Source of the DNA: a virus | Reading direction: 5' to 3' (one strand) | Length of the DNA: 35,193 nucleotides | Virus record (IMG/VR): IMGVR_UViG_3300030117_001860 | Coordinates: 1 to 35,193 of that record | Shown: piece after piece, positions 21,120 to 30,814 of the stretch | How the letters are laid out: every line of letters starts with the position of its first letter | How positions within the stretch are numbered: position 1 is the first letter of the stretch | The notes under the pieces: generated by a model | The model's input: the letters and a program-made list of their open reading frames with translations, nothing else | Told to the model about the DNA's origin: nothing | Database searches by the model: none | Program-made: the position numbers and the translations under genes

Positions 21120-22544
21120 TTACCCTGCTTCAAGGGCTGTGACTTTTTTTGATAATTCTTGCACTGCTTTTACTAATATTGGTACAAATTTTCCATATGA
21201 AGCTTCTAACTTATCGGGATTTGATTTATAGACAGCACCAATATAATCATTTTTGTCACCTAATACCGCATCAATTTCTTGTGCAATAAAACCAAGTTCT
21301 TTCTTTCCATCTTTAGCACTAGGTTCACGCATCGCCCATGTAAATTTTCTTGGTCTAAGTGCGTTTATTATATCAAGACCATCTTCTGAATCAACAATAT
21401 CTGTTTTATCTCTTTCATCAGATAATTCAGTTATTGTCTGAACTTGACATCTGAGCACAGTAATACTTGAATTTCCAAGAGTAACTTCATTACTTGCAGA
21501 ATTTGAGGAAGGATCAGAACCGTTTCCTAATGTAAGGCAATTACTGCCCGTAGTAGTAAGATCACCGGCGTTCATACCCACACAAGTATTGCTATTTCCA
21601 GAACTAATTTCCTTGCCTGCATTACGTCCCACGGCAGTGTTGTCTGAACCTGTACAATCTTCCAAAGACGTTGCCCCTACTGCTGTATTGTTAGAATTAG
21701 TTGTATTGGATGTAAGTGCACTTTGCCCTACCGCGACACAAAAGCTACCAGAACTATTTGAATTTAAAGCATTTTGCCCCAATGCAGAATTATTTCCGCC
21801 CGAAGTGTTTGCGGAAAAACATTCCGAACCCATAGCTGTGTTTTGAACGCCTGTATTAGTTGCCCGCATACAGTTGTACCCCACTGCGGAGTTATTATTA
21901 GCTTCTGTGTTTGCTTCCATTGCCTGACTCCCTACTGCCGTGTTTTGAATACCTGTACTGTTATTCAGAAGGCATTGAAAACCTGCGCCAGTGTTGTTAT
22001 TACCACCATTATTTGTTAAAGCTTGCTTCCCAACAGCCGTGCAATTACTTCCCGAAGTTATTGACGATAAACACGCATAACCCAGTCCAGTATTGTCATT
22101 TCCAGAGGTCAGAGCGTCTAAAGTTTCTGCCCCAAATCCTGTGTTGTTAGCTCCAGAATTTAAATTGGTCATAACAAGATTACCAATTGCAGAATTATTT
22201 CCGCCAGAAACTGATCCATCTAAAGCTAATGCTCCAAAACAAGTATTACCGGCCACACCATTTGCACCCTTACCAATTTGAAGACCATCTATTGATCCCC
22301 CAACAGCAAAAGCTGGGCCGCCTGCTAATGTAAATAGATCAATAAAAGCATTATTTGCTGTATTTCTAAGCTGCATAACACTTGTGGAAGTATTAGCAAA
22401 AAAACCACTTGCAAAAGTTGTGCTTGCTGCCGAGGAACCTGAATTATTTGTTGCTATTGCTTGTAAAACAGTATTTATGTCAGCCCTGACGTTGGCCCCA
22501 GTAGAGTTATCAATTGTATAGTCCGAAGCTTGTGCCATTTGCAA
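21120..22544 (-). CDS. Tail fibre with repeat stalk and S74 intramolecular chaperone
   Basis: 474 aa. Residues about 85-330 consist of about a dozen repeats of about 22 residues with patterns such as GNDNTGLGYACL, GIQNTAVGSQAM and GGNNSALGQNAL, like left-handed beta-roll stalks. Many repeats carry a Cys near the same place. The last 100 residues (from Ser375, LSDERDKTD) form the peptidase S74 chaperone domain; Ser375 and Lys380 correspond to the self-cleavage pair, so the domain would trimerise the fibre and then be cut off. The C-terminus is coiled coil. The fibre probably binds the host surface. It follows gene J. Confidence 0.88.
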   Translation of the reverse strand: MQMAQASDYTIDNSTGANVRADINTVLQAIATNNSGSSAASTTFASGFFANTSTSVMQLRNTANNAFIDLFTLAGGPAFAVGGSIDGLQIGKGANGVAGNTCFGALALDGSVSGGNNSAIGNLVMTNLNSGANNTGFGAETLDALTSGNDNTGLGYACLSSITSGSNCTAVGKQALTNNGGNNNTGAGFQCLLNNSTGIQNTAVGSQAMEANTEANNNSAVGYNCMRATNTGVQNTAMGSECFSANTSGGNNSALGQNALNSNSSGSFCVAVGQSALTSNTTNSNNTAVGATSLEDCTGSDNTAVGRNAGKEISSGNSNTCVGMNAGDLTTTGSNCLTLGNGSDPSSNSASNEVTLGNSSITVLRCQVQTITELSDERDKTDIVDSEDGLDIINALRPRKFTWAMREPSAKDGKKELGFIAQEIDAVLGDKNDYIGAVYKSNPDKLEASYGKFVPILVKAVQELSKKVTALEAG

Positions 22545-22579: not shown

Positions 22580-25500
22580 TTAACCACCACGCCCAAAACC
22601 AGTAGCGGCATATTTAAAATTTCTGTTAACATTACTACCACCAGAATCTTTTACATCTATATCGAAACCGCTACCAGTGATATTTGATAAAACAAAAAAA
22701 TCTCCCTGTGATTGATTTTCTATTGTTATTCCTATTGAAGGTAAAACAGAATTTGCTGCAACACTAGTACCTGACTGACCCGTGAAGAAACTATTAGTGA
22801 AGGTCACTGATGTTGTTGAACTGCCAGAAGCAATAAAACCACCAGCAGAGGCTCCTGCATTTCCAAGGCTTGTTTCTGTTCTGCTTTCTATTAATGCTGT
22901 ATATCCTAACTGTTCAATTTCTATTGATTGTGCAATATCTTTTGTTTCTAAATCACATCTAAATTTAAAACCTCTTGCAATATATTTACCATTTACAAAA
23001 GGATTGAATTGACTAAATTCTGCACTGAAATTACAGTTACCACTTGTCGATAAAGATGTTGCAGAAGTAAGGGTAAAAGTATTTGTGGTAATACTTTGTA
23101 TTTCATAATCACCATCAACACCAGTACCAGAAGTGAAATCTACATTTACAAAGCTACCGACAGAATATCCATGAGAAGATTTTGTGATAGTAATTATGGT
23201 ACCAGCAGCTCCTGACCCATTATTTATCGTATAAGTACCAGCAGTTGAGGTGTCAGGATCTGAGTCAGTCGTCGCTACAAGTAATTTTGCGTTTACATCA
23301 ACGGCAACAGTTGTACCATCAAAATCAGTCCATGTATCAATATTTGCACTTCTATCATCAAATAGTTGATTGTTATAAAATCCTTTTGTCACAATATGTC
23401 TTTGTAAGACAAGCGGTTGTTTTCCACCTAAATCTAAAGTATTCGCAAAACTATAAGTTCCACCTGTAGCAACAGAGTTGTCTAATAAATCCAAATCATC
23501 TATGGCATCAAAATCAGAAACACCATCAATAGTGTCTTCAGAACCAAGAACAAGACCATTCAGACTACTACTAAAAAAACAACCAACTTTTGCACCATTA
23601 AAAGGTGTTCCGTCTGTATCTTCCCTATCTGTTAAAACTGTTAATTTAGGAAATAGGTCAGGTTGAGTTGAAATGTTTTTAATTGATGCTGCATTAGCAC
23701 TTATTCTGCCTCCGTCATCCTTGAAGGCTAAAAAATATGTACCGTTAACAATATTAGGAACAATAGTTTCGTTTACATTACCTGATAATTCAGGAATTAC
23801 GTCAACAGAATCTGTAAAAGATGCACCTGTTGTCAAATTTGAACCACGAATTATTACGTTTCCACCATGCACCACATCAACAGAGGTTGATTTATTAAAA
23901 CGTAATCTTATAAATTGATCTGATAATGGTTCTATCTGTACATTTTGTACATCTTCCGGTAAAGCTGTTTTCCCCTTGGCATTGAAATTTAGCAGAGAAG
24001 TCCCAGCACTTAATTTTCCAAGTGTATTAACAGACTTTACAGCAAATTGATAAGTTCCTAACCTTGACTCAAAAAGCTCAAAACTTGGTCTGGCCACCCT
24101 TAATCTTTCTGGGTTATCATTTTCATATTGAAATTCTAGTAAATATTCCTTAACACCTTGTACAGGTTCCCATGCAACAAATATTTTTGATACGGCTCTA
24201 TTACTAAGAGCAACTATTTGCTCTGTTGCCGTTAGGTTACTTGGAGAAGGTTTTTCATTTAATAAAGTTGTAATTGTCCTTGGGTTAGCAGCAACGGTTG
24301 TATCTTCTACCTGTGTATATTTATTTGTATCATGAATAACTGCTGTGATTGTATATTCAGATTCATTTTTTTCTTCAATAGAAACAACCCGATATATTTG
24401 AAATTCAACACTAGTATTTTCTATAGCCCAAACGCTATTTGGTAAAGGATCAGATGAAAAAGAAGAAAAAAGAGTAACTGTGGAACCCGAAACGCTATGG
24501 ATAGCTCTGCTTTCAACTGAACCATCAGATAAAACAACAGACAATGTTGCTGCATTTTCTGATGTTAAATCTGTATTGTTTGCATCATCAACAACAATAG
24601 CGGTTGTATCAGTTGTTGTTCCTGTAATTTCATCTGTAATCGTAGTGCTTGAAACAGATTTTATACGACCACCTCTTCTAACCCCTGCCCTTAATGAATC
24701 CGCAATGGCAATAATTGTAGATGGTCTTACAATTACACCAGCTTCAAGAGTAGTTGTAAAAGAAACTACCTCAGATTCTTTTAAATTTGAGTATAAAAAC
24801 CACCGGCCTAATCTATTTGCTTGGCCTCTTGAAGTACAGGCAAAAGCTTTTAAAGTTTTTCTAGTCCTTCCAAACTTTGATATTGAATCTGATAAAGCTG
24901 TAATATCAGCAGTTGTAACAAGTTCATAATCTATTGTTTGAGTATCATTATCAAAATAGGCAACTTCAACCTCTGTATATTTTGTTCTTTGTCCTACACC
25001 CTGATATGTAAACCCCTCCTCTGTAACATTTGAATTATTAAAAATATATTGAGGATCTGATGTATTTGTAGAAACGTTTGTTGGTCTGTCTTGAGAAATC
25101 TGCAAACTACCATTACTATAAAAAGGCATGGCGTTCATTACAGAACATAAATCATTAATCAAACTGTAGGCATCATTTTTTTGATTTATAATTATATTTG
25201 TTGAAAACCGTGGCTCCGTTGTGTTTGTAATAGGGTCAGTAATTAAAGTACTTGCATAAGCACTTGCAGAATAAAAACTATAAACATCTAAAGTGTCAGG
25301 GTCAATAATCCCATCTGTTCCACCAAATCCTTTGTCTGTTGTCAAAATGTCATATAAAATCCATGCCGGATCAGAACACCATTCTTTCTTAAGAGTTCCA
25401 TCAGTGCCTGTTTTAAAAGTACCGTCAAAAACATAATCATCAGGATAAATAACTCTTCCATTATCACTGTCAATTAGCGTTCCATTTGGTACGAGGATCT

Positions 25501-26281
25501 TAGTACCCTTGATACGGTACATACGTTTGGGATAGCTTTGAAATTCCTGAGCATTAAATCTGATGGCAACATAAGCAAAACCTTGATAAGAGCTTGTATC
25601 TGTATTTATTTCAGTTAAAGATAAAAAATTTGTTTTGTTTTGTATTGTGGATTCTGTGCTGTCGTCTGTATTTCTTATAACTGTGATGTCAATTGGAAAA
25701 CTCATTGTTTTTTCAAACTTAATCTCAAAATCTTTTACAAATGGACTTGTTGCTTTACCATTAATAGAATTTGCCTGTACTGGATCATGAACAGTACCAT
25801 CGTTTTCTGTAATTCTTATAGATATTTTCACTTCAGAACCAACAATATCTCCATTATCTTCAAATTTTTGTAAGCTTGGAACCTGTATGCTTACTCTTAC
25901 CTTATCAACATTAGTATCTGTTATTGATCTTGTTACAGAAGTTGTTTTTGTGACTTCTACATTAACAGGAACAGTTTTTTCTATCGCATTAATTTCTTGC
26001 AATGCTGTTTGATCTGATGCACCATTTTTAAAAAAAACTTCTACATCAGAAAAATTTTCTTCACCATTTGCGTTCATTAATGGTGTTCCATCTAAGAAAA
26101 CATTTTTTCTAAAAGTATCAGTTCCAGCGCCACCAGCGTCTAATATCGAATCCACTTCTCCGTACCCAAGCAAATCTAATACTGTTGCAAATTGTTTACT
26201 TCGCAGGCCACCATCTATCAGGTCAGGATCAACTACCTTTCTATCAGTTCCAAATAATTGATCATCAACTAATCTAGGCAT
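22580..26281 (-). CDS. Tail tip / host-specificity protein, lambda J family
   Basis: 1233 aa, similar in size to lambda gpJ. The N-terminal part (about 1-500) has J-type regions: MPRLVDDQLFGTDRKVVDP, GSDPAWILYDILT, and the insertion region with repeated Ser/Thr. A fibronectin III-like domain (about 690-780, with KIFVAWEPVQGVKEYLLEFQ) follows. Residues about 1014-1087 carry a small domain that also occurs in L and M. The C-terminal ~140 residues are Gly- and Ser-rich and likely contact the receptor. It shares its start with the stop of gene I (TAATG). Confidence 0.88.
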   Translation of the reverse strand: MPRLVDDQLFGTDRKVVDPDLIDGGLRSKQFATVLDLLGYGEVDSILDAGGAGTDTFRKNVFLDGTPLMNANGEENFSDVEVFFKNGASDQTALQEINAIEKTVPVNVEVTKTTSVTRSITDTNVDKVRVSIQVPSLQKFEDNGDIVGSEVKISIRITENDGTVHDPVQANSINGKATSPFVKDFEIKFEKTMSFPIDITVIRNTDDSTESTIQNKTNFLSLTEINTDTSSYQGFAYVAIRFNAQEFQSYPKRMYRIKGTKILVPNGTLIDSDNGRVIYPDDYVFDGTFKTGTDGTLKKEWCSDPAWILYDILTTDKGFGGTDGIIDPDTLDVYSFYSASAYASTLITDPITNTTEPRFSTNIIINQKNDAYSLINDLCSVMNAMPFYSNGSLQISQDRPTNVSTNTSDPQYIFNNSNVTEEGFTYQGVGQRTKYTEVEVAYFDNDTQTIDYELVTTADITALSDSISKFGRTRKTLKAFACTSRGQANRLGRWFLYSNLKESEVVSFTTTLEAGVIVRPSTIIAIADSLRAGVRRGGRIKSVSSTTITDEITGTTTDTTAIVVDDANNTDLTSENAATLSVVLSDGSVESRAIHSVSGSTVTLFSSFSSDPLPNSVWAIENTSVEFQIYRVVSIEEKNESEYTITAVIHDTNKYTQVEDTTVAANPRTITTLLNEKPSPSNLTATEQIVALSNRAVSKIFVAWEPVQGVKEYLLEFQYENDNPERLRVARPSFELFESRLGTYQFAVKSVNTLGKLSAGTSLLNFNAKGKTALPEDVQNVQIEPLSDQFIRLRFNKSTSVDVVHGGNVIIRGSNLTTGASFTDSVDVIPELSGNVNETIVPNIVNGTYFLAFKDDGGRISANAASIKNISTQPDLFPKLTVLTDREDTDGTPFNGAKVGCFFSSSLNGLVLGSEDTIDGVSDFDAIDDLDLLDNSVATGGTYSFANTLDLGGKQPLVLQRHIVTKGFYNNQLFDDRSANIDTWTDFDGTTVAVDVNAKLLVATTDSDPDTSTAGTYTINNGSGAAGTIITITKSSHGYSVGSFVNVDFTSGTGVDGDYEIQSITTNTFTLTSATSLSTSGNCNFSAEFSQFNPFVNGKYIARGFKFRCDLETKDIAQSIEIEQLGYTALIESRTETSLGNAGASAGGFIASGSSTTSVTFTNSFFTGQSGTSVAANSVLPSIGITIENQSQGDFFVLSNITGSGFDIDVKDSGGSNVNRNFKYAATGFGRGG
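23020..23240 (-). repeat. Copy of the repeated insertion domain, in J
   Basis: The encoded segment TITKSSHGYSVGSFVNVDFT, then SGTGVDGDYEIQSI and NTFTLTSATSLSTSG, matches segments of L and M in order and spacing. The shared DNA word GTAAAAGTATTTG near 23071 also appears in the other copies. The domain looks like a small beta-sandwich. Confidence 0.8.
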
Positions 26282-26892
26282 TAGGTTATGCTTTTAACTA
26301 CTTGAGTGGAATCTGTTCCTGAGCTTATTATAATTGAACCACTAAAAACCAAACCATAAATTATAGGAATTGGAACACCACTATTACTAACATTCTGTAT
26401 GCCACTAAAAGAATAAGAACCTCTTATTGCTGGGTCAATCTCACTAACATCTGAAGTATTAGGTATTGGATTTTGTGGTGCTATAAGATCAGTGACACCA
26501 CCAATAAGCAATGAAGTTCCTAATGTTGTTACTACAGGGCCTATAGCAGCACCAAGAGTTATACCTAGAATGGTAACACCTCCAGCCGCTATAGCATTTC
26601 CAGCACCTATTCCAAGCACTCCTCCTATTATTGGTATTGCAGGGCCTGAACCCGTAGCAACAGGAATAATTTGTATATCGCCCTGACCAGACATTGTAAG
26701 ATATTCTTCTGTAATTACCCTACCACCCATTTTTATTTTATATATTTGATCATTCATATGTTTTTGTATGCCTTCAAAGTTTGCAATTAAAAAACTCATA
26801 GCTTGCTGTGGTGATTTTACCGCAGCCATAAAATATGACTTTCCTAAAAATTGCCTTAACTTACCATATACTTTTATTTTTTTAAGCTGCAT
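26281..26892 (-). CDS. Tail assembly protein, lambda I family
   Basis: 203 aa. The N-terminal half (KVYGKLRQFLGKSYF, PQQAMSFLIANFEGIQKHM) is the ubiquitin-like fold of the lambda gpI family. The middle is a long Gly/Ile-rich hydrophobic stretch (IPIIGGVLGIGAGNAIAAGG and TLGAAIGPVVTTLGTSLLIG), also usual for this family. gpI acts in assembly of the tail tip with K and J. The position between K and J and the overlap with both agree with this. Confidence 0.85.
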   Translation of the reverse strand: MQLKKIKVYGKLRQFLGKSYFMAAVKSPQQAMSFLIANFEGIQKHMNDQIYKIKMGGRVITEEYLTMSGQGDIQIIPVATGSGPAIPIIGGVLGIGAGNAIAAGGVTILGITLGAAIGPVVTTLGTSLLIGGVTDLIAPQNPIPNTSDVSEIDPAIRGSYSFSGIQNVSNSGVPIPIIYGLVFSGSIIISSGTDSTQVVKSIT

Positions 26893-27589
26893 ATCTGTAA
26901 ACCCCTCTTAGTGCTTGTTGGTATCTTAAGTCAAAAAGTTCTCTGCAACTCAAAGCTTTTATATTATGATTCAATATCATGTTATCACCTATATAAACAG
27001 CGACATGATCTAAATTACCTGTGACAGATTGAAAAAGCAAAACATCACCAACTTTTATATTTTTATTACTTGCCTGTTTTTTAAAGCCACCCAAAGGCAA
27101 AGCTTTTTCAAATTCTGGTTCCTTAATAAAATCTTTTATTCTTTTTGGTCTTTTCCAATCCATCAATTTTATTTTCTTAGTTTCCAAATACCAATCAGAA
27201 ATTATACTCCAGCAGTCATATTTTCCCCAGATGAAATTACGGCCAATTAATGAAGGTGCTTTCCAGCCTGTAGGCTCAAACGATTCCCAATGATCATGTT
27301 CAATACTGTAAATAAAATATGGAAACCCAAGATGTTCACAGGCTGCCCTGTCTGTATCTGATGGCGTTGCAGCCCCTACAGGGTGACTATGTATTACTCC
27401 AATAACTTCCCCAGTATCTTCACATTCTGCCCAATCATCAGGATCAAGGATAAAAAATTCAAATTTACCCTCTGCTAAATTTTTACAAGGCCAAAAAGTT
27501 TCTTTACCTTTAATTATTGCAAGTAAACCACAAGCCTCTTCTGGTGCTTGTTCTTTTGCATATTTTATAAAAGATTCTTTCCAAGTCAT
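26882..27589 (-). CDS. Tail tip protein, lambda K family (JAB/MPN + NlpC/P60)
   Basis: 235 aa with two peptidase domains. The N-terminal JAB/MPN metalloprotease shows EEACGLLA and the zinc motif HSHPVGAATPSDTD (about residues 67-80). The C-terminal NlpC/P60 cysteine peptidase shows YDCWSII with its Cys, DHVAVYIG with its His, and a following polar residue. In lambda gpK, the NlpC domain may help the DNA cross the cell wall. Here both sites look intact, so it may be the only peptidoglycan-cutting enzyme in the window. Confidence 0.9.
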   Translation of the reverse strand: MTWKESFIKYAKEQAPEEACGLLAIIKGKETFWPCKNLAEGKFEFFILDPDDWAECEDTGEVIGVIHSHPVGAATPSDTDRAACEHLGFPYFIYSIEHDHWESFEPTGWKAPSLIGRNFIWGKYDCWSIISDWYLETKKIKLMDWKRPKRIKDFIKEPEFEKALPLGGFKKQASNKNIKVGDVLLFQSVTGNLDHVAVYIGDNMILNHNIKALSCRELFDLRYQQALRGVYRYAA

Positions 27590-27591
27590 AA

Positions 27592-28410
27592 TTAAAAATT
27601 AACAAATGTTCCAACGCCTGCAAAGTCAGCCTTTGTTACAAGTTTTTTTGGTGCAGATATACCGAACAGATCAAAACTACTTACAAGTTCAAATTGTACA
27701 ATATTTCTATTTTCAATAGTTTTTCTTTCAATAAAATAAACCTCTCTTGGTAACTCTGCTGAAGGATCAACAGAACCGCTTTTATATGGGTTTACATCAG
27801 ATGGAAAATTAACTTCATCTAAATCTTTACTCAATGCTCTACGCCTTGTCACTTTTGCTCCTGCAAGATCAGATATTGCTGTGGTTTGATTTGTAAGCTG
27901 AAGTATTGATGTTATCGTTCCTAATAAGTTTGATAGCGTTAAAGTTGGTCTTGGCAGTTTACCTTTACCAGAATACTTAAAACCTTCAGCTTTTACAGGC
28001 ATCCTTGAATATGTATTTGCCTGCCATACAATATCTAAACTATCTTTCATATTATTGCCGCTATGAAATAAATAAACGGTTGGATTTGCTATTGTTGCAT
28101 TGATATTAAAAGATACAGTACCGCTTGTGAATAGTGAAGTTGTGCCTGTAACTGTAAAAGTATTTGTATCAACTGTTTGAATGGTATGAATCCCATCAAT
28201 GCCATTACCTGTAGTGAAATCAAGGCTTAGGATTAAACCAGTAGAAAATCCATGGCTACTTAGTGTGATAGTGATTGTTGTTAATTCTTGAACATAAGTT
28301 GCTGTTTTTGCTGTTTTTGTATAATGAACATCTGCTTTTAATTCAACAGAATATAATTCAATAATAGATTTATTTGTTAAGCCTTGAAGTGCGCTTGTAG
28401 GAACTGCCAT
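27592..28410 (-). CDS. Minor tail protein, lambda L family, without iron-sulphur cysteines
   Basis: 272 aa. Residues 1-30 and about 108-200 match L: IIELYSVELK, LFHSGNNMKDSLDIVWQANT, MPVKAEGFKYSGKGKLPRPT, TLSNLLGTI. Residues about 31-107 are an inserted domain also found in J and M. Known L proteins carry a C-terminal domain with four Cys that bind a 4Fe-4S cluster; this protein has no Cys at all and ends soon after the core. Gene K starts three bases later, so a lost frame is unlikely. It should join the tube and tip. Confidence 0.85.
   Translation of the reverse strand: MAVPTSALQGLTNKSIIELYSVELKADVHYTKTAKTATYVQELTTITITLSSHGFSTGLILSLDFTTGNGIDGIHTIQTVDTNTFTVTGTTSLFTSGTVSFNINATIANPTVYLFHSGNNMKDSLDIVWQANTYSRMPVKAEGFKYSGKGKLPRPTLTLSNLLGTITSILQLTNQTTAISDLAGAKVTRRRALSKDLDEVNFPSDVNPYKSGSVDPSAELPREVYFIERKTIENRNIVQFELVSSFDLFGISAPKKLVTKADFAGVGTFVNF
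28090..28320 (-). repeat. Copy of the repeated insertion domain, in L
   Basis: The segment TITITLSSHGFSTGLILSLD then FTTGNGIDGIHTIQTV and NTFTVTGTTSLFTSG interrupts L between its VELK strand and LFHSGNN. The same order of Gly, Asp, His and Thr appears in J and M. GTAAAAGTATTTG also occurs here (near 28157). Confidence 0.85.
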
Positions 28411-28976
28411 TATGGTTCAAATACTTCACGAAAAGAACAATTTATAATTGCTCTGTTGTTATAAGGAATAGTTTTTGTCCATGAATCACAAACATATTGT
28501 CCAGCACCAGAAAGTGTTATTGAAACATTACCGCTATTTGTAGCGGAAGCAGCAGCCGTAACTGTAAAAGTATTTGCATCAGCAGACGAGGCTACAGCAA
28601 AAGTTCCATCAGTTGCAGAACCACTTGTATAATCAATCGTCAAAACATCACCAATAGCAACTCCATGTGAAGTGATACTAATAGTCACAGTAGTCCCACT
28701 TTGCGAATATGTACCTGTTTTTGTAAAGCCTTCTGCTGGTGGTGTAAATGTAAAACTTGCCTGATCGTTTACTCTACTTCTCAAAAATGCTTCTATGACA
28801 TCTGCATCAGTCTCAGACACGTTAAAAGTAAGATCATATTCTTTAGGGTCTTGAGATAATGGAAGGCCATATAAAGCCCTAAACTCATAACCATCACCAA
28901 GCGAAGAAACCCTAACTTTTGGTTTGCTTTGTTTTCTCATCCCATAAGTGGGAGTTATTGATGGAAATGTAGCCAT
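28410..28976 (-). CDS. Minor tail protein, lambda M family
   Basis: 188 aa. The N-terminal 80 residues (YGMRKQSKPKVRVSSLGDGY, AFLRSRVNDQASFTFTPP) and the end (YVCDSWTKTIPYNNRAIINC) match gpM-like proteins. Between them, residues about 84-158 are the same domain that occurs in J and L, placed in a loop before the YVCDSW strand. M lies at the tail-tip end with L and K. The stop shares one base with the start of L (TAATG). Confidence 0.85.
   Translation of the reverse strand: MATFPSITPTYGMRKQSKPKVRVSSLGDGYEFRALYGLPLSQDPKEYDLTFNVSETDADVIEAFLRSRVNDQASFTFTPPAEGFTKTGTYSQSGTTVTISITSHGVAIGDVLTIDYTSGSATDGTFAVASSADANTFTVTAAASATNSGNVSITLSGAGQYVCDSWTKTIPYNNRAIINCSFREVFEP
28503..28727 (-). repeat. Copy of the repeated insertion domain, in M
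   Basis: The segment TVTISITSHGVAIGDVLTID then YTSGSATDGTFAVASS and NTFTVTAAASATNSG is inserted between TPP and YVCDSW of M. It shares the SHG, DG and NTFT positions with the copies in L and J, and the DNA word GTAAAAGTATTTG (near 28565). Confidence 0.85.
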
Positions 28977-30814
28977 TATCTATTTAACAAACCCCCTGCC
29001 CTTTGCTCATCAATTATAGTTGCCTGCACAACAGAAGCAATCAAACCGCCTAGTTGATCGGCTTCTGATCCATTTCCTTGAACAGAACTACCTGTTGCGT
29101 CTACGTTTACGGTGATCATATTGTTTGTTGTATTACCGCCCCCGATAGCATTGTTTGGAATAATTGTGCCAGCGGTTTTTGGTACAAACAATTCTGGCCC
29201 ACGTTCCCCTACTACTGAAATTTTATTAACAGGTGGTTGACCACCGTTTGCAAAAAGTCCACCAATCAAACCACCTAAAAATCCACCAATGCCTTTTCTT
29301 TTTCCACCAAAAGAAGCCCCAAAGTTTTCTCCAAAATTTCCTAATAATTTATCTATCTGAGCATCAATGATCTTATCTCTAATTTTATTTAATACATTGG
29401 TCATTGCCTGACCAAACGACTGTGCTCCAGTAATAGATTCTCTTAAATTACTCTTGATACTGCTTTCAATTTCTTCACCCACTGCCGTCATTTTTTCTTT
29501 CAATTTTTCTGCTGCCTCTTGATTTTTCTTTTGAAGCTCTTCTTGTTCCTGTAATTTTTTATTCTGTTTTTCTATCTCATTTGTTTTAACTATTTCTGTA
29601 AGCAATCTTTTTTGAACTTGATCATAGTTTTTATTAAGTTCTGCAAGCTGTCTTTTTAATGATGCTTCTGCTCTTTTGTTATTATTTTCCTGTGCTGTTC
29701 CTAATCTTTGTAAAAGTTTCTGTCTTGAAATAAATAATCTATTTAGTTCACTTTTTAATGCTGCCTTATCTCCATCTTGTAATGCTTTTATAAATTTTTT
29801 CTGTTCAGTTATATTTTTAATCAAAGCCGTTGTGACAGCACCAATACCCACAGCAATAGCAGCAAATGGCAAAGCCTTTAATGCAATCGTTGCTAATCCA
29901 CCTGCAAAAGCTATTTTCTGTAATCCTAAAGCCACAGCTGGTAAAATTACCACCACACCCTTTGCTGCAAATGCTATCGCTGCAAATATCGCAGCAGTTT
30001 TGGCAATCGGTGAATTAACAAACTCAACAGCTGCTTTTGTCAGTTCCGTTAATGCTCTGATCACAGGCAAAATGGCTGGAGTAAGTTGTTCTCCTACTGC
30101 TCTTGATAAGTTTTCAGCTTCATTACTTAGATTTTTAAATACCTGTGTCGGGTCATTTTCCAAGATCGCCTTCAAATCCTCGCCACCCTGTTTTCCTAGT
30201 TGTCTCAATGCCCTGATCACCACATCACTTGTTAACTTACCTTGGGCAGCAAGTTCTTTCAGTTTACCTACATCTACATCCAACTCATCTGCCAATGGTT
30301 TTAGTATCAATGGTATCTGCTCTGATACGCTCCTAAATTCATCTCCAGCCAACCTACCAGAACCAAGAGCCTGTGCTAATTGTCTGAAGGCATTGGAGGC
30401 TTCCTGTGCATTTGCACCACCTAATTTTGCAGCAGTATTAAATCCGATAAAAGTCGTTCTAATATCTTCTAGACTTACCCCTAATGGTTTTAATCTTGCT
30501 GTAATATTTGTAACACCCTCAAGAGCTTCTGTTGCACTAAGACCAAATAAATTTTGAGCATCAGTTGCAATCTTTTGAGCCGCAGAAAAATCTCCTGTTG
30601 CTTTTGTAAGTAGTCCTAAACGTAAATTTAATTTATCAAAATTGATTGATGTTCTTACTGCCTGTCTTGCTAATAATGAAATCCCAACACCACCAATCGC
30701 TGCTTTTAAACCACCAAACGATCTTTGTAGCGCATTGGTTCTATTTTGTACACCCTGCAAGGCTCTTGTTGCACCACTGGCATCAACTCTTAGGGTAACA
30801 ACTGACTCTGCCAC
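28976..30814 (-). CDS. Tape measure protein
   Basis: 612 aa. The tape-measure domain lies at about residues 70-230 (LGLLTKATGDFSAAQKIATD, FRQLAQALGSGRLAGDEFRS, PLILKPLADELDVDVGKLKE). A hydrophobic region (about 270-340) and a long coiled coil (about 340-440) follow. The end resembles lambda gpH (Gly-rich, VTVNVDATGSSVQG). Using about 0.15 nm per residue, the tail would be near 90 nm, in siphovirus range. It follows the frameshifted G-T chaperone gene, as in lambda. Confidence 0.92.
   Translation of the reverse strand: MAESVVTLRVDASGATRALQGVQNRTNALQRSFGGLKAAIGGVGISLLARQAVRTSINFDKLNLRLGLLTKATGDFSAAQKIATDAQNLFGLSATEALEGVTNITARLKPLGVSLEDIRTTFIGFNTAAKLGGANAQEASNAFRQLAQALGSGRLAGDEFRSVSEQIPLILKPLADELDVDVGKLKELAAQGKLTSDVVIRALRQLGKQGGEDLKAILENDPTQVFKNLSNEAENLSRAVGEQLTPAILPVIRALTELTKAAVEFVNSPIAKTAAIFAAIAFAAKGVVVILPAVALGLQKIAFAGGLATIALKALPFAAIAVGIGAVTTALIKNITEQKKFIKALQDGDKAALKSELNRLFISRQKLLQRLGTAQENNNKRAEASLKRQLAELNKNYDQVQKRLLTEIVKTNEIEKQNKKLQEQEELQKKNQEAAEKLKEKMTAVGEEIESSIKSNLRESITGAQSFGQAMTNVLNKIRDKIIDAQIDKLLGNFGENFGASFGGKRKGIGGFLGGLIGGLFANGGQPPVNKISVVGERGPELFVPKTAGTIIPNNAIGGGNTTNNMITVNVDATGSSVQGNGSEADQLGGLIASVVQATIIDEQRAGGLLNR

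Follow-up and report, generated by a model that had tools for sequence, protein, structure and literature searches.

Promiscuous Ig-like domains on phages were reportedly described by Fraser et al. in 2006, and the system presented here resembles them in that a small beta module is found over several virion proteins, though the fold matched here is a beta-barrel. Among siphophages of lactic-acid bacteria, 'evolved Dit' proteins are described as carrying CBMs in loops of the galectin domain (PMC7291167), and Dit insertions of lactococcal phages are reported to aid adsorption to exopolysaccharide-bearing hosts (PMC10688798). For the 936 phages, PMC6669499 describes CBMs on the neck passage structure, the major tail protein and the Dit, with cell binding in the two cases tested. 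Insertions within the Dit core are also seen in T5 pb9, where an OB-fold is inserted, and in marine phage R4C, where the barrel-like insertion domain protrudes outward and resembles a T7 fibre domain (PMC10276861). As for the fold that concerns us here, the beta-barrel of the K1F endosialidase is presented in PMC12632334 as one of three polysialic-acid binding sites and as a hotspot of host discrimination.

The stretch of DNA analysed (the window) is IMG/VR virus record IMGVR_UViG_3300030117_001860, 35193 bases long. It carries a lambda-type tail module on the minus strand, in the order tape measure-M-L-K-I-J, which is the lambda-like tail tip order, with portal, terminase, head morphogenesis, helicase and primase genes elsewhere. 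The genes of this region and the units within them are as follows.

28976..30814, minus strand: tape measure protein (Pfam TMP_3)
28410..28976, minus strand: gene M, lambda gpM-like distal tail (Dit) ring protein, 188 aa (Pfam Phage_min_tail, 54.6 bits, cut-off 39)
28515..28721, minus strand: barrel unit in M, residues ~86-154 (HMM 99.5 bits)
27592..28410, minus strand: gene L, lambda gpL-like hub protein, 272 aa (Pfam Phage_tail_L, 96.9 bits, profile positions 6-142 of 206)
28105..28308, minus strand: barrel unit in L, residues ~35-102 (HMM 94.5 bits)
26882..27589, minus strand: gene K, JAB and NlpC/P60 tail peptidase (Pfam)
26281..26892, minus strand: gene I, tail assembly/plug protein, without the unit in the window (phrog_32)
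22580..26281, minus strand: gene J, central tail fibre / host specificity protein, 1233 aa (phrog_31 central tail fiber J, E 5.7e-166)
23024..23245, minus strand: barrel unit in J, residues ~1013-1086 (HMM 95.5 bits)
21120..22544, minus strand: S74-chaperone fibre, next after J

As in the 'evolved Dit' proteins, M holds an in-frame module in a Dit ring protein and has relatives with the site empty, but it is a lambda-type Dit without a galectin domain, its module is a predicted endosialidase-type barrel placed in the ring domain, and the module is repeated in L and J. The likeness to the 936 phages is that several virion proteins of one phage are decorated, whereas the module family and the host class are different, the carriers here being M, L and J in the tail tip of a marine phage, joined by I in some relatives. 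The predicted M core superposes on lambda gpM (8iyk_E) over 109 of 109 residues with a Z of 13.7, and predicted M aligns with the T5 pb9 core over 93 residues (rmsd 2.1) and with the R4C Dit over 158 (Z 8.6, rmsd 4.7); both of the latter have an insertion within the Dit core, but the inserted folds differ from the one found here.

The cultured relatives are the Prochlorococcus phages MED4-184 and MED4-117, with M 55.8% identical over its full length and J about 44%. A single-cell genome contig labelled uncultured Alphaproteobacteria (AG-426-I04; L399, CACGZD010000010.1) also has the tail module, with the unit in M and not in L, and this lone single-cell match is a hint of an alphaproteobacterial host for part of the group. 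Other features of the module vary as well. The last 90 residues of the window L hold zero cysteines, so that the C-terminal four-Cys (4Fe-4S) domain of gpL is absent, and of the 232 distinct complete L proteins fetched, 230 have no more than one cysteine there (S-H1 has 4); this Cys-rich domain is called universal among gpL homologues in the lambda structure paper (PMC10721106). In MED4-184 (L001:8142-9110) a JAB-like K part is fused to gene I in one ORF, with no NlpC/P60 seen in the translation. The S74-chaperone fibre has many repeats of the type N-(T/S)-A-(V/L)-G, and its listed ORF has a TTG start.

M, L and J each hold one homologous unit of about 70 residues, which confirms what the sequence-only reading had proposed, and the HMM boundaries fall within a few residues of its figures. 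Local pairwise scores are 156 for M-L, 140 for M-J and 177 for L-J, far above the maxima of 60, 70 and 70 from 2000 shuffles (z of 18.8, 14.2 and 20.5), and with M as tblastn query the window record yields the L copy (E 8.2e-14, 44% identity) and the J copy (E 3.3e-10, 36%). A profile HMM built from seven seeds, including all three window units, finds three units and no more when the window is read in all six frames, one each in M, L and J. Shared DNA words had also been noticed, and one of them, GTAAAAGTATTTG, does have just three occurrences in the window, one in each unit (23073, 28154, 28564). However, it overlies the conserved residues N-T-F-T in a genome with AT-rich codon usage (AAT 0.78, TTT 0.90), and is therefore weak evidence of recent copying.

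By profile and by modelled structure, the unit matches a six-stranded beta-barrel, a homologue of the barrel domain that phage endosialidases carry beside their catalytic part (PF12195), rather than the Ig-like module suggested earlier. A profile of 77 units finds the solved endosialidases 4hiz (phi92) at an E of 8.7e-8 and 1v0e (K1F endoNF) and 3gvj at 4.8e-6, and 66 of the 77 units match PF12195 at E <= 0.1, the best at 5.5e-10. The window copies score below the Pfam gathering score of 35 bits (whole M 25.7, whole J 18.8, J unit alone 24.9), and L gives no row in the PF12195 search of the window proteins, so we describe these units as relatives of PF12195 and not as members. The AlphaFold2 model of M has a pLDDT of 89.6, and that of the J unit (residues 1010-1089) has a pLDDT of 88.7 and six strands. 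Residues 82-158 of the M model align with the 4hiz_C barrel over 77 residues (Z 10.2, rmsd 1.8), and a unit modelled alone aligns with 4hiz over 76 (Z 9.2, rmsd 2.2). Riboflavin synthase and E1 FCCH barrels come next after 4hiz for the lone unit, with Z of 8-9; the barrel class is thus common, and it is the sequence match, not the fold, that singles out the endosialidases. Structural matches in BFVD include endosialidases, tail spikes and J proteins.

The units are like the endosialidase barrels in profile, in the six-stranded fold and in an H-G-x-x-x-G-D turn, and have a conserved core with an invariant His; they differ in that the barrel stands alone in lambda-type M, L and J, with no catalytic (sialidase) propeller. 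An Ig-like fold is not the first choice, the best sequence and structure matches being endosialidase barrels, and no Ig domain appears among the matches listed (50 Foldseek rows, 50 VIA rows). Weak antibody rows in the profile search are at chance level (E 1.5 and worse), and Pfam He_PIG matches M at an E of 0.011, below its cut-off.

In each of M, L and J the unit is an inserted domain, since relatives have clean in-frame empty sites, and the host proteins are otherwise normal, the unit lying in their loops as first suggested. The M site is empty in S-H1, AG-345-A17 and L204, and the L site in MED4-184, L066, S-H1, AG-345-A17 and others. For instance, the L protein of L066 reads ...TLVSALH-GSTD-VTRFHSG... 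at the insertion point, where the window has the barrel, and MED4-184 has the unit in M and J and lacks it in L. The empty J site reads ...TTDDDP-SSG-SASFTQFN... in two relatives (L102 and L010), with J about 78% identical over the first ~1000 residues.

Nor is the unit a fixed part of M and L in all relatives, which would have refuted the sequence-only reading: it is missing from 58 of the 245 distinct complete M proteins and from 137 of the 232 L proteins counted in the same way. Among distinct complete ORFs from 315 fetched loci it is present in 187 of 245 M, 95 of 232 L, 81 of 127 J and 14 of 200 I, counts that depend on the queries used (two scans with unit-bearing and two with unit-free queries, best 80 of each), and in the same loci it is found in 0 of 145 K and 0 of 186 tape measure proteins. 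A second, larger HMM likewise gives no match outside M, L, J, I and three carriers that come from other phages. Within this tail module the unit is thus confined to proteins of the tip, namely M, L, J and, among relatives, I. The insertion site is almost constant in M and L, and J has additional sites. In 243 distinct M/L pairs the L unit never occurs without the M unit (98 with both, 98 with M only, 47 with neither).

Several related or neighbouring inserts were also seen. The 14 units in gene I are longer, divergent and at the C-terminus (L065, L148, L144, L129 and others), and an early part of J in L030 (L030:4553-5260) has a divergent unit-like stretch (TATYT...SSPHGYAVDE...) at a different site. 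Another loop of L carries a different insert, with the motif ...YYC(S/T)THGN(S/A)MGN... that looks cupredoxin-like, in some relatives (L070:3452-4450 and L002:7415-8407).

The history of the units was followed by trees and by comparison with their flanks. A tree of 95 unit representatives has 8 changes of site label against a shuffled mean of 51.2, so the units group by insertion site. At shared residues, two units of one genome agree in their synonymous codons as often as units of different genomes do (within v between: M-L 0.499 v 0.484, M-J 0.454 v 0.453, L-J 0.482 v 0.483), and the window copies are thus without sign of recent copying or conversion. The trees likewise give no sign of recent copying or gene conversion among the window M, L and J, and the fairly recent copying once read from the shared DNA words is not upheld. 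Unit identity tracks flank identity, with r of 0.55 in M, 0.37 in L and 0.54 in J (60 sequences each; 0 of 500 permutations as high). Mean identities of unit, N flank and C flank are 0.66, 0.68 and 0.72 for M, 0.73, 0.78 and 0.81 for L, and 0.64, 0.59 and 0.64 for J, meaning that in M and L the units evolve just a little faster than their flanks, and in J they do not. A hypervariable binder was considered and rejected, the units being not clearly faster than the flanks.

On a tree of the M and L cores (232 rows; FastTree, with a long branch to S-H1) the fewest state changes are 1 for L, 3 for M and 9 for J, the last scored in 123 rows and all of them minima. The L insertion looks single and old, and the J insertion looks to be the labile one. 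One transfer is visible: the J protein of one relative (L070) has a second unit of the M type at residues 314-382, which is 82.6% identical in DNA and 86% in protein to the M unit of another (L066), and 70.5% in DNA to the M unit of its own genome, while J of a third (L086) is the empty version of that site (...NGTFKSD-KEYSNDPAW...). As judged from these comparisons, this is a clear passage of an M-type unit into J. GGTACTT is common to the recipient J, near residue 314, and to the start of the inserted unit, a possible microhomology. The spread of the unit through neighbouring tail genes, a further part of the sequence-only reading, accordingly stands over a longer time, given this second J site and the C-terminal units of gene I, but not as a recent event. 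The best explanation is that each insertion goes back to one or a few old events and has since been passed down together with the gene that holds it.

Units of this kind are also found outside this lineage. The major capsid protein of P-SSP2 and P-SSP3 has one, where P-SSP7 (about 75% identical) has a short loop; the P-SSP2 protein (L004:1643-2956) is T7-like. Further carriers are fibres of P-HM1, P-HM2 and MED4-213, tail tube B of NATL1A-7, and fibres or spikes from Mannheimia, Aeromonas and Bacillus. With the capsid unit as query, 79 unit-bearing loci were fetched, 9 of which have two or three neighbouring carrier ORFs; one of the nine (L361) is a member of the present tail family, and in another locus (L336, 2134-4579) the unit is in the capsid protein and in an adjoining tail gene. 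We found no description of such a spread of the endosialidase-type barrel through virion proteins in the open-licence PMC literature. It is possible, and we offer it tentatively as the less probable side of the question, that the barrel serves aquatic tailed phages in general as a cassette for decorating the virion, captured many times in exposed loops of tail-tip, tail-tube and major capsid proteins to make multivalent glycan binders, in this family in M, L, J and I, with one hop visible beside its empty site.

A related question is whether M, L and J each took up their unit independently from a common stock of phage barrel domains, and not by copying from gene to gene within the lineage. The units do form three separate groups: in a cleaned tree, built without J-like ORFs, outlying J rows and second-site J rows, those of J, L and M each lie on one side of a branch (supports 97/81, 16/65 and 90/69, L and M not being firm). 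Unrelated phage barrels are also about as close as the window units are to each other (0.41 for the window M against J, 0.46 against L and 0.55 against a fibre unit from outside). However, a single clade of J, L and M, which is rejected with J proteins among the outside rows, is not rejected in the cleaned tree with the J-like outside rows removed (p-AU 0.35), and the M-type transfer into J among the relatives is a clear case of movement between genes. We regard separate capture as nearly an even call that tilts slightly against it; it is in any case compatible with the function that we propose next.

We favour, with moderate confidence, the explanation that these are old in-frame barrel insertions in M, L and J that act as weak, multivalent binders of surface glycans. 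An endosialidase-type barrel would sit in exposed loops of the Dit ring protein M, the hub protein L and the central fibre J, and would bind carbohydrate with low affinity, a decoration in the manner of an 'evolved Dit'. In lambda the tip holds 6 M, 3 L, 3 J and 3 I according to PMC11101478, and this stoichiometry, if shared, would place about 12 barrels in a ring around the tail tip. They may then keep the virion on surface polysaccharide through many weak contacts at once, until it reaches the true receptor; the weak multivalent binding proposed in the sequence-only reading is plausible. From the likeness to proteins with protruding or sugar-binding insertions we infer that the barrels would be exposed at the surface and would bind glycans to the benefit of the phage; by this analogy they probably help the tail to grip a sugar-coated host surface. 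Placement is consistent with this, the distribution of the units following the line of the lambda tip: M, L, I and J are reported in the tip and K is reported as undetected in the virion by mass spectrometry (PMC10721106), and here the tip proteins have the unit while K and the lumenal tape measure do not. As to the ligand, the K1F pocket residues S460 and S468 lie opposite Asp in the J, L and M units (in a profile alignment with an offset in numbering that is itself deduced), which makes sialic acid unlikely under that mapping. A counterpoint to glycan binding is that the same fold has other roles, as in E1 FCCH and riboflavin synthase.

The main alternative is that the barrel is a structural clamp or spacer that stiffens the tip, protects loops or locks subunits together, with no ligand on the host. 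A rapidly changing receptor binder would not be expected to have units that change at nearly the rate of their flanks around a conserved core and invariant His, and relatives of the domain are found in major capsid and tail-tube proteins, where clamping is plausible. We nevertheless think a clamp unlikely: the L unit is present or absent between close relatives with little else changed, so it is dispensable for assembly, and the best-matching solved domains are the sugar-binding endosialidase barrels. That the units are instead a fast-moving exchange cassette, now swapped between genes and phages so as to change binding adaptively, as the sequence-only reading had supposed, is very improbable, and for M and L of the window it is for the most part refuted already, the second-site J insertion and the nine state changes at J being set against clustering by site, the lack of excess codon identity within genomes, unit identity that follows the flanks, and an L presence that needs one change.

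What emerges is a domain of known kind, inserted long ago at several sites and in a setting that is new, a variation on the theme of the 'evolved Dit' and the decorated virion. This gives a name to a domain that falls below curated cut-offs and is hence unnamed in the virion proteins of many aquatic phages. The presence and absence of the unit in close relatives, such as L with or without it beside a unit-bearing M, is a natural experiment, and cultured MED4-184, together with Prochlorococcus MED4, makes the idea of glycan binding testable. If it is true, each tip would have a dozen weak binders that can be read from sequence, and if the barrels bind surface glycans they would give insight into how marine phages capture their hosts in dilute water.
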